64,000 nucleotides of DNA from Cyclobacteriaceae bacterium. GTDB taxonomy: Bacteria; Bacteroidota; Bacteroidia; Cytophagales; Cyclobacteriaceae. Each line of letters opens with the position of its first letter. Position 1 is the stretch's first letter. The stretch covers positions 62,001-126,000 of the forward strand of contig JAEUUF010000022.1 of NCBI GenBank assembly GCA_016787645.1, given 5' to 3'. Under the pieces are notes generated by a model, which saw only the letters and a program-made list of their open reading frames with translations, was not told where the DNA came from and made no database searches. Both the position numbers and the translations under genes were made by a program. This document shows, in pieces, positions 13,224 to 17,555 of this stretch.

Positions 13224-13517
13224 TCAGTCGGCTTCCTCGATAATGAAGATATCTTCCTTATCGCGCTTCATGAGGTACTTTTCCCGGGCGAATTTCTCAA
13301 GCAATTCCGTGGTGCCCATGAGTTCGGCACGATCCTGCTCCACCTCCTTGATCTTCTCATGATAATATTCCCTTTCATGTTCCAGCGAGCGCAATTTGGC
13401 AGTCAGGCGGAACCGATTAATTAAGTCATTGGAGTCCAGGAATGTCATCCAAACCAGGAAAGAAATGCCCGTCACAAAATAAAAGTTGCGAAAAGCCGGC
13501 GGGAGTCGTTTGAACAT
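13224..13517 (-). CDS. Septum formation initiator, FtsB/DivIC-like
   Basis: 97 residues. A short cytoplasmic N-terminus, one membrane segment (about residues 13-30, FYFVTGISFLVWMTFL) and a long coiled coil (AKLRSLEHEREYYHEKIKEVEQ) make up the bitopic FtsB/DivIC layout. The protein would act in the divisome with FtsL/FtsQ-type partners. ATG 13515-13517 (MFKRLPPAFRNF) is chosen although the frame is open to 13595. In Bacteroidota ftsB usually follows eno; here several genes lie between them. Confidence 0.8.
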   Translation of the reverse strand: MFKRLPPAFRNFYFVTGISFLVWMTFLDSNDLINRFRLTAKLRSLEHEREYYHEKIKEVEQDRAELMGTTELLEKFAREKYLMKRDKEDIFIIEEAD

Positions 13518-13616
13518 AAGCTTAAAAAATGGTTGGACGAAGATAGGAAATTGTTTCGGAATAGGGCAAGTTGACGCCATGCGCGATCGGTCCAACCAAG
13601 CGATCGAATCGTTCCC

Positions 13617-13624
13617 TATATTTA
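13617..13624 (+). promoter_or_regulatory. Near-consensus -7 box (TATATTTA) for the TIR-HD gene
   Basis: One mismatch to TAnnTTTG, 19 bases before the ATG. It is the only promoter-like element in the short gap to the divergent ftsB gene. Confidence 0.3.
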
Positions 13625-13643
13625 GGCGCCGAATCCCTTCGAC

Positions 13644-16262
13644 ATGCCCTCGCTCTTACCCGGTTACGAATACGACATTTTTATCAGCTATCGGCAGAAT
13701 GACAATTCCCGGGGGTGGGTAAGTGATTTTGTGCGGAACTTGAAGGAGGAACTGGCTTCCACCATCAAGGATACACTTTCAGTCTATTTTGACGCCAACC
13801 CGGAGGACGGGCTGCTGGAGACCCACCATGTGGACAAAAGCCTTGAGGGGAAACTCAAATGCCTCGTGCTCATCCCGATCGTTTCGCAAACTTATTGTGA
13901 CCCCAAGTCCTTCGCGTGGCAGAACGAGTTTCTCACATTCAACCGGCTGGCCCAATCCGATTCACTGGGGCGCGATATACGGCTGGCCAGCGGAAATGTG
14001 GCCAGCCGCATTCTGCCCGTCAAGATTCATGAACTCGAGACTGAAGATCGTATTCTCCTTGAAAACGAAATTGGCGGCGCGGTCCGGTCCGTCGAGTTTA
14101 TCTATAAGGCCAGCGGGGTTAACCGACCTTTGAGTCTCAATGACAACCCCGACAAGAATTTCAACAAGACAGATTATCGCGACCAGGTCAACAAGGTGGC
14201 TAACGCTATCAAAGAGCTTATCTACGCCATTAAATATCCCGGACGCGCTTCGGAAAGCACGGTAAAAGCAGTAGAGGAATCACATGCAGGCAGCACGCGA
14301 TCCTCATTGGATCATGGTAGCAGCCGGCCGGCCTCCGACCACTCCATCGCTGTGCTTCCCTTTGTTAATCTTACCCAAGAAGCTTCCCAGGAATACTTCG
14401 CCGACGGCGTCATGGAAAATATCCTCATTCAACTGGCCGGCGTCCGGCAATTGAGAGTGATTTCCCGGACTTCGGTAATGCGATACCGCAAAACCACCAA
14501 GTCGGCTCCCGAAATCGCCACTGAACTGGGCGTAAGGTATATTCTCGAGGGCAGCGCCCAGGCGCATGGCAACAAAGTCCGGATCCATGTTCAACTGATC
14601 GATGCAGTCAGTGACCAGCCGGTGTGGGGAAAGACCTTTGTAGAAAACCTGGATGATATTTTCACCATTCAGACTAATGTCGCCGAAGTGGTAGCGGGCG
14701 AATTACATGCCTCCTTGCTCCCCAAGGAAAAACAGACACTCAAGGAAATTCCTACCCGGAACCTCAAGGCCTTTGATTTGTTCCTGAAAGGCAGGCACGC
14801 ATTCAACCAATGGAACCTGGAAGGATACCGCACCGCTGAAAAGTATTTCAAACTGGCGCTCGAAGAGGATCCTGAATTTGCGCAAGCCTATTCTTACCTC
14901 GCAAGCACGTACTCCGCACTCATGTCGTGGAACGGAGATCTTTCTCCCGAAGAGAGCCTGGCGAAGATCAACATCTTTTTGCCGGAGGCGATGAAGCGGG
15001 GGGCCACCGATAACGACTACCTGACAGAAGCCTTCGTTGAATTTTTTATCAACAAGAATTTTCCCGAAGCAGAGAAGAAGCTGCAGCAGGCTCTTGAGCT
15101 GGGACCCAATAACGCCAATGTGTACTACACACAGAGTTATGTCCTGAGCATGATGGGTCGAATGGAAGACGCCTTGCTGGCCGTAGAAAAGGCAAGAACC
15201 CTGGATCCAACCAGCGTATCCAGTTTCAACTACCAGGCCATTGCTCTTTACTTGCTCAACCGGTACGATGAAGCAAAAACCATTCTGCGCGAAGCGCTTC
15301 AACTGTATCCGTTCGTCGTCAGGCTCCATGATCACCTTGCTCGCGTACTAGTCACTCATGGGGAATTCGGCGAAGCAGCAGCTGTGGTGCTAGCCGGGCT
15401 CCGCACGATCAACTTCAGGCCGCCTTCTATGGTAGCCTACCTTGCGATTGCCCACCACGGACAGCACGAGAAAGAAAAGTCGCAGGCCCTGCTGGAGGAA
15501 TTAAAGTCACGCAGTGCCCAGGGTGAGAAAGGCGTTAACCTGTATGTCACGCACATCTATCTCGCTTTAGGGGATATCCCTGCTGCCCAGGTGTGGATTG
15601 AAAAGGCCCGTAAGACCAATGATACCGACCTGGTTTGGTTCAACGTTGACCCCCTGCTGGCACCGCTGCGGGAAAGAAAGCCAGATTACGACAGAGCGGA
15701 GCGGTTTATCCAGGAGAAACTACGCCATGAACTACCCGCCAAACTGCATTATCACAACACCGAGCACATCATAGATGTGCTGGAATCGGCACTTAACATA
15801 GCTGCACACGAGCATTTGACCACCGAAGAGGTCCGGTTGCTGCGCCTGGCAGCACTTTACCATGATTCGGGCATGATCATTTCCCACAAGCAGCACGAAG
15901 AGAAAGGTTGTGATATTGCCCGGGAGACCCTTCCGGCATTTGGGTTCACTTCGGAACAAGTGGAGATCATCTGCGGCATGATCCTGGCGACAAAGATTCC
16001 CCAGACTCCTCACACCTTGCTGGAAAGGATTCTTTGCGATGCCGACCTCGATTACCTGGGCCGTGAAGATTTCTATTCAATTGGGGAAAAACTTCACAGT
16101 GAACTTCGTGATTCGGGGACGATTGAAACCGAACGGGAATGGAACCTTATACAAAAGACCTTTCTCGAAAATCACCGTTATCACACCGAATATGCACGGA
16201 CCAATCGAGAAGCCATGAAGCAGCAACACCTTCAGGAAATCGCGGCCAAACTTAAAAAGTAG
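13644..16262 (+). CDS. TIR - TolB-like - TPR - HD phosphohydrolase multidomain protein
   Basis: 872 residues. (1) A TIR domain at 8-165: YDIFISYRQND at the start, then KCLVLIPIVS and S89-F-A-W92-Q-N-E95, where Glu95 fits the catalytic glutamate of NADase TIRs. (2) A TolB/FlgO-like domain at 232-358 (SIAVLPFVNLTQ...YFADGVMENI...LGVRYILEGSAQ), the segment usually found behind class III nucleotide cyclase domains. (3) TPR repeats at about 375-690. (4) An HD domain at 700-830 with His708, His740-Asp741 and Asp799/Asp801 of the H...HD...D metal site. No transmembrane segment. A PycTM-like gene follows 74 bases later. The natural reading is a sensor/signal-turnover protein of a nucleotide-based defence or stress system; this is inference. 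Confidence 0.8.
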   Translation: MPSLLPGYEYDIFISYRQNDNSRGWVSDFVRNLKEELASTIKDTLSVYFDANPEDGLLETHHVDKSLEGKLKCLVLIPIVSQTYCDPKSFAWQNEFLTFNRLAQSDSLGRDIRLASGNVASRILPVKIHELETEDRILLENEIGGAVRSVEFIYKASGVNRPLSLNDNPDKNFNKTDYRDQVNKVANAIKELIYAIKYPGRASESTVKAVEESHAGSTRSSLDHGSSRPASDHSIAVLPFVNLTQEASQEYFADGVMENILIQLAGVRQLRVISRTSVMRYRKTTKSAPEIATELGVRYILEGSAQAHGNKVRIHVQLIDAVSDQPVWGKTFVENLDDIFTIQTNVAEVVAGELHASLLPKEKQTLKEIPTRNLKAFDLFLKGRHAFNQWNLEGYRTAEKYFKLALEEDPEFAQAYSYLASTYSALMSWNGDLSPEESLAKINIFLPEAMKRGATDNDYLTEAFVEFFINKNFPEAEKKLQQALELGPNNANVYYTQSYVLSMMGRMEDALLAVEKARTLDPTSVSSFNYQAIALYLLNRYDEAKTILREALQLYPFVVRLHDHLARVLVTHGEFGEAAAVVLAGLRTINFRPPSMVAYLAIAHHGQHEKEKSQALLEELKSRSAQGEKGVNLYVTHIYLALGDIPAAQVWIEKARKTNDTDLVWFNVDPLLAPLRERKPDYDRAERFIQEKLRHELPAKLHYHNTEHIIDVLESALNIAAHEHLTTEEVRLLRLAALYHDSGMIISHKQHEEKGCDIARETLPAFGFTSEQVEIICGMILATKIPQTPHTLLERILCDADLDYLGREDFYSIGEKLHSELRDSGTIETEREWNLIQKTFLENHRYHTEYARTNREAMKQQHLQEIAAKLKK

Positions 16263-16336
16263 TCAGATACAGGAATAACAAGTTACCCGAGAAATACACC
16301 ACCCCAAACCTTACCCCACCAAGCCATTAATTTCTT

Positions 16337-16918
16337 ATGGAAGATCAAAAACAGGAACCCGGAGAAAAGAAGAAGAAGGAAGGCAAAGGCAAAGAAACCC
16401 TGTTCAGGGTGGCCTATCGCAACCAGATCGCGCTGATCCAGATTGCCGATAACAAAGCGAACCTGATCATCAGCATCAATACGTTGGTTATCTCTTCGAT
16501 CATCGCTGTTAGTGGCTACGGGATGGTGGCTGATCGTTTTTCGCACGACAAGGTTACCGTTATCATTCCCATTGCCCTGATCCTGTTAAGCTGTTTGACC
16601 TCGGCTATCTTTGCCATTCAGGCGGCTAAACCAAAACTGATAACGCCACAAGCCCTGGACCTGCGGAAAGAAAAGGATAAGACCAGTCTCATCTTCTTTG
16701 GCGTGATCTCTCAATACAACCAGGCTGAGTACCTGGATCGGATGAAATCACTGCTTGCCTCGGATACCGATGTCTACGAAACGATGAGCATCGACCTCCA
16801 CAACCAGGGAATGATCCTCACCCGAAAGTACCAGTTGATCAACCGCGCTTACCGCATCTTCATGTTCGGATTCATCCTGAGTGTGTGGATGTTCCTGGCT
16901 TTTTTGGTGGCGGGATAA
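16337..16918 (+). CDS. PycTM-like membrane effector (Pycsar effector family, formerly DUF5706)
   Basis: 193 residues. A Lys-rich cytoplasmic N-terminus leads to the family's landmark FRVAYRNQIALIQIADNKAN (residues 23-42) running into membrane segment 1 (43-63). Segments 2 (73-96) and 3 (173-192) follow, with a soluble loop between. In Pycsar, PycTM proteins are membrane-impairing effectors opened by cCMP or cUMP. No pyrimidine cyclase is adjacent here. Elsewhere in Bacteroidota this domain is often fused behind an HD domain; here HD ends the upstream protein, so the split pair probably works together. Family call good, mechanism inferred. Confidence 0.8.
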   Translation: MEDQKQEPGEKKKKEGKGKETLFRVAYRNQIALIQIADNKANLIISINTLVISSIIAVSGYGMVADRFSHDKVTVIIPIALILLSCLTSAIFAIQAAKPKLITPQALDLRKEKDKTSLIFFGVISQYNQAEYLDRMKSLLASDTDVYETMSIDLHNQGMILTRKYQLINRAYRIFMFGFILSVWMFLAFLVAG

Positions 16919-16934
16919 ATACTGCGTTGGGCGG

Positions 16935-17555
16935 TTAACGTCGGTTTGCGTTGAATGTGCAAATTAGCGAGCGCAGGTCCCTATACTCCGCTTTTCCATG
17001 TTTACTCAAGAATCCTTCAATCTCCTCCGGAGGAATAAAATCAAGAAGCACTTCAGTAATGTTATCAGTCAGTGGACGAACCTCACCGGTTTCAGGATCT
17101 TCAAGGATAAGTATCTCGCTTGCGTTTCCCCATATCGTGGACATTACATAGGTCGTTGGACGGAGCGCATATAGGTTTGTCTTCCCGCGGCATACAGGCC
17201 TTGCCAATGCAACTTCCATCCAATAGGCTTTCCCATGGGCGAGTTGCAACTCATTAAAGACCCTAAATGTGTCACGCTTTGTCGCAAATTCACGGACCCT
17301 GTTGAAATAGTACTTTTCCTGCAATTTGTTCCATCTTTTGATTTCAACTCCTCTACCCTTGCCATCATTAAAGAATTCTCTTACTTCACCGCGCCGAACG
17401 GAATCTTCATCTATCAACCACACATATCCTGATTGCGCCCAAACGGTGGTGACTGAACCGCCACACATAGCAACAGTCATCATGGCCCAGCAAAATCTGA
17501 TTATGGACCAATTCGGTCTTGAAAGCATTCCTTGATTAATGAATTTACCCGACAT
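16935..17555 (-). CDS. Secreted protein of unknown function
   Basis: 206 residues with an N-terminal export signal ending ...SVTTVWAQ. An alternative start at 17528 (MLSRPNWSIIRF) would give a more usual signal length. The body (GYVWLIDEDSVRRGEVREF...) matches no family I know. It is convergent with the PycTM gene, 16 bases away. The sequence looks somewhat more AT-rich than its neighbours. Confidence 0.6.
   Translation of the reverse strand: MSGKFINQGMLSRPNWSIIRFCWAMMTVAMCGGSVTTVWAQSGYVWLIDEDSVRRGEVREFFNDGKGRGVEIKRWNKLQEKYYFNRVREFATKRDTFRVFNELQLAHGKAYWMEVALARPVCRGKTNLYALRPTTYVMSTIWGNASEILILEDPETGEVRPLTDNITEVLLDFIPPEEIEGFLSKHGKAEYRDLRSLICTFNANRR

Follow-up and report, generated by a model that had tools for sequence, protein, structure and literature searches.

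What role does a TIR-domain protein play when an HD phosphohydrolase domain closes its other end and a gene for a PycTM-family membrane protein follows? The question is raised by a 64,000-nucleotide stretch of a Cyclobacteriaceae bacterium genome (assembly GCA_016787645.1, contig JAEUUF010000022.1, positions 62,001 to 126,000; the window). Here open reading frame (ORF) A encodes a TIR–TolB-like–TPR–HD fusion and ORF B, 74 bp on and likewise on the + strand, a PycTM-family protein. An initial annotation had read the pair as a possible immune or stress signalling module, and ORF checks, Pfam, profiles and a structural model bear out its gene and domain order. It had also proposed that TIR takes the place of a cyclase. 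At 18 of the 20 loci where the surroundings of the fusion can be judged, we find that the gene cluster includes a class III cyclase, so TIR does not replace the cyclase.

More broadly, comparison of genomes shows that predicted class III cyclases accompany both the HD subfamily of A and the TIR–TolB–TPR–HD gene as a whole. The reading we favour, at slightly less than an even chance for the full proposed pathway, is that A may serve both as regulator and as output of a second-messenger pathway built on a class III cyclase. What looked like an immune pair standing alone would then be re-read as the output end of cyclic-nucleotide signalling.

Class III cyclases accompany the fusion gene

The fusion is present in at least 27 Cytophagales genomes. 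Within the genus of the window it occurs in 18 of 63 genomes, contig-cut copies included. An order sample of 391 genomes contributes, among the matches listed, two more from another genus of the family (G139 and G362). A scan of relatives (best 80 of 451) re-found 19 known fusion genomes and added seven metagenome-assembled genomes (L106, L110, L111, L116, L121, L130, and L128 with L131 of Prado047), labelled Cyclobacteriaceae, Flammeovirgaceae, Cytophagales or Chryseolinea. Contigs end before the context can be decided in seven of the 27 (G014, G019, G022, G030, L116, L121, L130).

Two types of cyclase make up the 18 linked cases. The commonest company of the fusion is a histidine kinase–response regulator–RR-cyclase cassette (RR, response regulator). 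An RR-cyclase stands in 11 clusters (G008, G015, G023, G032, G061, G068, G071, G079, G139, G362, L110), either adjoining the fusion or behind sensor kinases at up to about 18 kb, and was Pfam-scanned in G023. A TPR-cyclase is next door in the other seven (G020, G027, G034, G058, L106, L111, Prado047), identified by Pfam scan in G020 and elsewhere by a PF00211 search or our own cyclase profile together with like length; the contexts of G058 and Prado047 each rest on two contigs. Among the 14 genomes with both a cyclase census and a decidable context, 12 have a cyclase within 17 kb of the fusion where 0.40 would be expected (combined p 6e-15), a statistic that omits G014, G019, G022 and G030, whose short fusion contigs all show no cyclase.

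Genome content agrees with genome order. Fusion genomes hold between 1 and 11 class III cyclase matches, and the RR-cyclase has an orthologue in 16 of 18 of them versus 3 of 45 others (p 4e-10, kinship ignored). In the ten genomes read, a receiver gene precedes the RR-cyclase wherever the contig allows (that of G019 is cut), and the RR-cyclase clusters are rich in sensor kinases and receiver domains.

Some fusion loci have features of their own. The G019 fusion gene (L032:1673-4271) is broken into two frames that overlap, apparently through a frameshift or an error of assembly. Contig C14 of G020 (122 kb) carries six TIR-family genes including the fusion, along with an RR-cyclase and a TPR-cyclase. 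Beside the G068 fusion gene lies a gene for a TIR, an FGE-sulfatase-like domain and an alpha/beta hydrolase (L075:10868-13615). The genome of the window also encodes TIR–TolB paralogues without HD at L042:7786-10152 (with L089) and L044:5860-8427 (with L088), which have cyclases about 9 and about 6 kb away.

The HD domain belongs to a cyclase-linked subfamily

The HD domain of A exceeds the PF01966 cut-off (33.4 bits versus 22), and the six residues H704, H708, H740, D741, D799 and D801 are the same in every one of the 25 aligned HD rows. The domain is thereby predicted to carry the H...HD...D metal site of HD superfamily phosphohydrolases, intact as first annotated. Its place within that superfamily was examined in a tree built by a quick method, with SH-like approximate likelihood ratio test (SH-aLRT) support only, duplicate fusion loci dropped and loci from L132 on thinned to every third. 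The TIR-fusion HDs form one group (SH-aLRT 96), which includes two rows labelled solo, one of them a fusion gene that is cut off and the other a fusion gene that is split. This group nests within a larger one of solo HD proteins of about 190 residues and HD-YitT fusions (SH-aLRT 99). The HDs of HD-PycTM proteins form a separate group (SH-aLRT 99), away from that of A. The initial idea that HD had been split from the effector finds no support in this tree, and donation of the HD by an HD-PycTM protein was rejected on the same grounds.

Solo HD genes also keep company with cyclases. In 30 Cytophagales genomes, picked by contiguity among the matches listed in the order sample, 10 of 30 such genes lie within 100 bp of a cyclase and 22 of 30 within 7 kb, where 0.2 would be expected; two of the other eight are 10 and 22 kb from one and six are unlinked. 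RR-cyclase to HD and RR-cyclase to HD-YitT neighbour pairs were both found. A class III cyclase is present in all 30 of these genomes, in all 18 fusion genomes and in 20 of 20 genomes taken from unlinked solo-HD loci, so co-occurrence does not fade with linkage. The corresponding count is 1 of 20 among HD-less controls, the first 20 of 164 sample genomes without an HD match at E 1e-20, 19 of them from the window's own family. The difference between solo-HD and HD-less genomes (50/50 versus 1/20) has a p of 3e-16, and within that family (25/25 versus 1/19) a p of 2e-11.

From linkage, co-occurrence, the HD tree, the invariant metal site and profile matches (HD hydrolases at E 1e-7), we infer that the HD subfamily of A acts on, or is controlled by, the product of a class III cyclase. 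The initial link to cyclic-nucleotide signalling is thus upheld by cyclase neighbours and co-occurrence. A cyclic-mononucleotide phosphodiesterase role has genomic linkage and weak profile similarity as its basis, and the subfamily is a candidate uncharacterised cyclic-nucleotide phosphodiesterase or receptor in Bacteroidota.

At three loci an RR-cyclase is followed directly by a gene that joins the HD to a YitT-family membrane protein (L094:7454-8920, L095:6960-8426, L096:6215-7708). The HD-YitT fusion would be another membrane output on the same HD.

The TIR domain and the CadC-like middle of ORF A

Matches to sequence models identify the N-terminal part of A as a predicted TIR domain. For A alone the Pfam TIR match is below the cut-off (E 0.089); an E of 0.1 or lower against TIR_2 is reached by 22 of the 25 family members, the best of them at 4e-4, and a relative, 56% identical over 199 residues, passes the Pfam TIR cut-off (33.6 versus 28 bits). 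Plant TIR proteins are the best PDB matches of the TIR family profile, at a non-significant E of 0.03. In an AlphaFold model of A (mean pLDDT 87.1, pTM 0.59), residues 10-197 form alternating strands and helices, the pattern of a TIR domain, and Glu95 sits close to where helix 90-105 begins; no TIR protein is among the first 50 fold matches of the full-length model. Glu95 is invariant in 25 of 25 aligned TIR rows, as are many further TIR residues, which suggests that catalysis has been kept.

Behind the TIR, the TolB/FlgO part falls below its Pfam cut-off (20.1 versus 22.4 bits) and the TPRs rise above theirs. The NCBIfam CadC model matches residues 245-523 (E 3.7e-7, under the model's own cut-off). 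Between the model of A and the periplasmic domain of CadC, 325 columns align (TM 0.69 by target length), a match that appears to cover TolB plus TPR, as the NCBIfam hit suggests. A TolB–TPR middle behind a signalling domain is also the arrangement of the cyclase–TolB–TPR family (TIGR04510) and of CadC/HilA-type winged helix-turn-helix–TolB–TPR regulators, whose domains follow the order in which they are named. Unlike these, A has TIR in front, HD behind and no transmembrane or other hydrophobic segment over the hydropathy threshold used.

A proposed cyclase pathway ending in a TIR domain

How might these parts work together? In the pathway we propose, sensor kinases would switch on the RR-cyclase, which would make a 3',5'-cyclic nucleotide, probably cyclic adenosine monophosphate (cAMP), judging from its K..T or K..D residues. 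The HD domain would bind and hydrolyse this nucleotide, setting threshold and duration, and the CadC-like TolB–TPR middle would relay the state of HD. TIR, with its conserved Glu95, would be released to act on nicotinamide adenine dinucleotide (NAD+) or another nucleotide. In the lineage of the window, the PycTM gene lies directly downstream of A and a kinase–RR-cyclase operon elsewhere in the genome (the RR-cyclase, G000:C25:295224-296252, is behind receiver and kinase genes and unlinked to A); there PycTM would add a membrane output.

A sharper version we regard as doubtful: a two-component pathway in which cAMP from an RR adenylate cyclase reaches a fused HD phosphodiesterase, which is also its receptor and gates a TIR NADase, with PycTM as second, membrane output. 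If true, cAMP would here operate a TIR pathway unlike Thoeris, CBASS or Pycsar. TIR domains, best known from immunity, are tied here to two-component sensing and to class III cyclases of the adenylate type in one bacterial family. Neither a TIR–TolB–TPR–HD protein nor the HD–cyclase link is described in the titles and abstract openings listed by searches of the open-licence PMC literature. General signalling is favoured by the two-component input and the housekeeping-like flanks, and the TIR, PycTM and TIR–nSTAND1 neighbours in some genomes may be compatible with a role in defence.

Several observations weigh against a cyclase pathway. The window and G066 are the two decidable loci without a cyclase; in both, the gene directly downstream is PycTM. 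The contig of G066 ends 0.6 kb past PycTM, so a cyclase may lie on that side, though gene order there matches the window. A search of the window's own genome (G000) placed its three class III cyclases on contigs C25 and C14 and none on C22, the contig of the window, in keeping with the initial remark that none is adjacent. B-type PycTM is linked to the fusion in only two of the eight fusion genomes that carry it, and most fusion genomes either lack it or have it unlinked; G067 combines a B-type PycTM and a divergent HD with no class III cyclase match and no fusion. The HD profile matches class I cyclic-nucleotide phosphodiesterases weakly, at a non-significant E of about 0.02. At the 52 solo-HD loci of the relatives scan (L132-L183, some with short flanks), a cyclase is found in 11 flanks, 6 of 7 from named Cytophagales versus 5 of 45 others; linkage thus fades outside Cytophagales. 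The single cyclase-bearing HD-less control, G007, has an RR-cyclase, as do G029 and G083, both fragmentary genus genomes that lack HD and do not belong to the control.

A could also be a signal terminator and nothing else: its HD would be a cyclic-nucleotide phosphodiesterase in ordinary environmental signalling, with TIR as a non-enzymatic assembly or localisation module. The kinases and receivers of the RR-cyclase clusters fit this idea, as do the housekeeping-like flanks and the solo HDs without TIR beside the same cassette in other genera. In Dyadobacter, for example, a solo HD of the same subfamily follows the same kind of kinase–RR–RR-cyclase cassette (L141, L169, L176), lacking the TIR–TolB–TPR part. 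The invariance of Glu95 and so many other TIR residues over 25 rows argues the other way, and we consider this explanation unlikely, if well worth keeping in mind.

ORF B and the PycTM family

If A is the output arm of a cyclase pathway, what is B to it? ORF B matches PF18967 (PycTM) at E 2.7e-23 (82.8 bits versus a cut-off of 27.2) and has three hydrophobic segments, the combination that marks the family; it is the only PycTM match in its 4.0-Mb genome. A PDB search with the B sequence gave nothing useful. PycTM disrupts the membrane on binding a cyclic pyrimidine, according to PMC11224242, and by analogy B may do the same.

The group to which B belongs is one clade (support 100/100) from 10 genus genomes, with the window and G066 as sisters; they are sisters as well in the fusion tree (96/85), which omits the split G019 gene. 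They share a colinear 12-gene block. A neighbourhood survey, which the initial annotation had called for, gives a divided answer: A and B are linked in G066, only 2 bp apart, and not in most other fusion genomes. Linkage unique to the window genome was rejected on this evidence. In the six other fusion genomes with a B-type PycTM, its contig differs from every contig with a class III cyclase match. Three fusion genomes have HD-PycTM instead, and 7 of 18 have no PycTM-family match (two of these only 73-78% complete). PycTM was accordingly rejected as an obligate partner, and the role first assigned to it, that of reader in every system, is not supported. Because linkage is confined to two sisters and the other fusion genomes are unlinked or PycTM-less, the A–B pairing is derived, kept since the window and G066 split, and optional for A.

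It may even be an accident of one lineage, a separate single-copy PycTM gene having landed beside A once. The restriction to two sisters, the six genomes that carry fusion and PycTM apart, and the B-type PycTM without fusion in G067 and G083 would all follow. However, G066 retains order, strand and a 2-bp gap although A and B have diverged to 67% and 72%, and B-type PycTM is found in 8 of 18 fusion genomes versus 2 of 45 without the fusion (p 4e-4, kinship ignored). PycTM-family genes also stand two genes from a solo HD (L034, L103), and HD-PycTM a few kb from an RR-cyclase–HD cassette (L141, L176). An accident strikes us as rather unlikely.

The candidate nucleotide and known systems

Which nucleotide would the pathway use? 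At the substrate-choosing positions, all 12 aligned fusion-linked cyclases (8 RR-cyclases, 4 TPR-cyclases) have K..T or K..D, which we take to be the adenylate-cyclase type, as do both aligned cyclases of the window's own three. The alignment, from which matches weaker than 1e-8 were dropped, holds 12 of the 18 fusion-linked cyclases and omits those of G139, G362, L106, L110, L111 and Prado047 and the third of the window's own genome (C14). The fusion-linked enzymes would probably make an adenylate-type product, cAMP. For pyrimidine cyclases PMC11224242 names other substrate residues.

HD-PycTM genes adjoin a non-canonical cyclase in five of the seven genus genomes that have such genes; of the remaining two, G063 has no cyclase in the fetched flanks and G015 none on the HD-PycTM contig. 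At L049, L081, L083, L084 and L093, HD-PycTM is next to a class III cyclase altered both in its substrate residues (Q..S) and at the usual Asn (Ile). These five are likely Pycsar-like loci with an HD-bearing effector. Like A–B, they bring HD and PycTM families near a cyclase; unlike it, their HD and PycTM parts belong to other groups than the HD of A and B, and the neighbouring cyclase is altered.

Might A–B itself be a Pycsar-type anti-phage system, in which, upon infection, PycTM and TIR are switched on by a cyclic pyrimidine from the cyclase, with HD/TIR as accessory? B matches both the Pfam and PADLOC PycTM models, the family cyclases match PADLOC PycC models, and the HD-PycTM genes beside non-canonical cyclases lend further colour. 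Pycsar (PycC with PycTM or PycTIR) likewise unites a class III cyclase family, a PycTM-family protein and a TIR output in one signalling context. Yet B scores as high on the PADLOC '2TM Effector' model, which we take to represent CBASS, and the PycC models match canonical and altered cyclases alike, for which reason their matches were set aside as evidence of a pyrimidine cyclase. A–B also has no PycC beside it on the window contig; the cyclases linked to its relatives look adenylate-type, mostly under two-component systems; and A carries TolB–TPR–HD, with no cyclic-nucleotide-binding domain listed by its Pfam scan. We judge a Pycsar-type system improbable. Least probable of all is the initial model of an immune module complete in itself, with TIR standing in for a cyclase to make or consume a nucleotide signal that is removed by HD and read by PycTM: the linkage of A and B in the window and G066, the singularity of B in its genome, and G067, whose PycTM without a class III cyclase (though also without the fusion) speaks against PycTM needing one, count for less than the cyclases at 18 of 20 loci, the seven of 18 fusion genomes lacking PycTM-family matches and the cyclase-linked type of the HD.

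With other systems, likeness to the proposed cyclase pathway is partial. In Thoeris, TIR is a nucleotide-signal enzyme, as it might be here; no ThsA-like partner is among the seven proteins scanned around A, although no genome-wide search was made. Those proteins likewise gave no Pfam match to a CD-NTase of the CBASS kind, for which no dedicated search was made.

Locus features and further observations

The features of the locus are collected in Table 1. The pair is flanked by a divIC-like gene (below the Pfam cut-off) and by a short uncharacterised gene followed by a putative enolase. Enolase and ribosomal proteins, recognised by eye, give the flanks what we take to be a housekeeping look, as first annotated. 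Scans of the window for Rfam families and tRNAs found none. The promoter-like element upstream of A is compared with what is presumably the Bacteroidota consensus.

Table 1. Features of the ORF A–ORF B locus (window coordinates)
Feature	Position	Strand	Basis
TATATTTAG, resembles Bacteroidota -7 promoter element, a lead only	13617..13625	+	comparison with consensus
ORF A, TIR–TolB-like–TPR–HD protein, 872 aa	13644..16262	+	Pfam, model, orthologues
Predicted TIR domain, residues 1-200; Glu95 codon 13926-13928	13644..14243	+	profiles, alignment, model
TolB/FlgO-like subdomain, residues 229-360; with the TPRs after it probably CadC-periplasmic-sensor-like	14328..14723	+	
TPR array, about residues 371-690	14754..15713	+	Pfam, model
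HD phosphohydrolase domain, residues 686-872; H704/H708, H740-D741 intact; cyclase-linked subfamily	15699..16259	+	
A–B intergenic gap, 74 bp; no terminator-like site in consensus scan	16263..16336	+	
ORF B, PycTM-family membrane protein, 193 aa, three hydrophobic segments	16337..16918	+	

Two further observations concern the wider signalling repertoire. The genome of the window has nine cNMP_binding (PF00027) matches, six of them over the cut-off, which are other possible cyclic-nucleotide readers. TIR genes (about 530 aa) were also seen near nSTAND1 genes at L186:7720-9315 with 13332-17426, L184:7109-12821 and L196:737-6651, with nSTAND1 called by Pfam in L186 and L196 and by a like start sequence only in L184. 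These sites lie beside an RR-cyclase in G007, about 4 kb from an RR-cyclase in G139 and on a Hymenobacter tibetensis plasmid; when plasmids were searched with the TIR part, a single Hymenobacter plasmid was found, which carries a TIR and an nSTAND1 gene.

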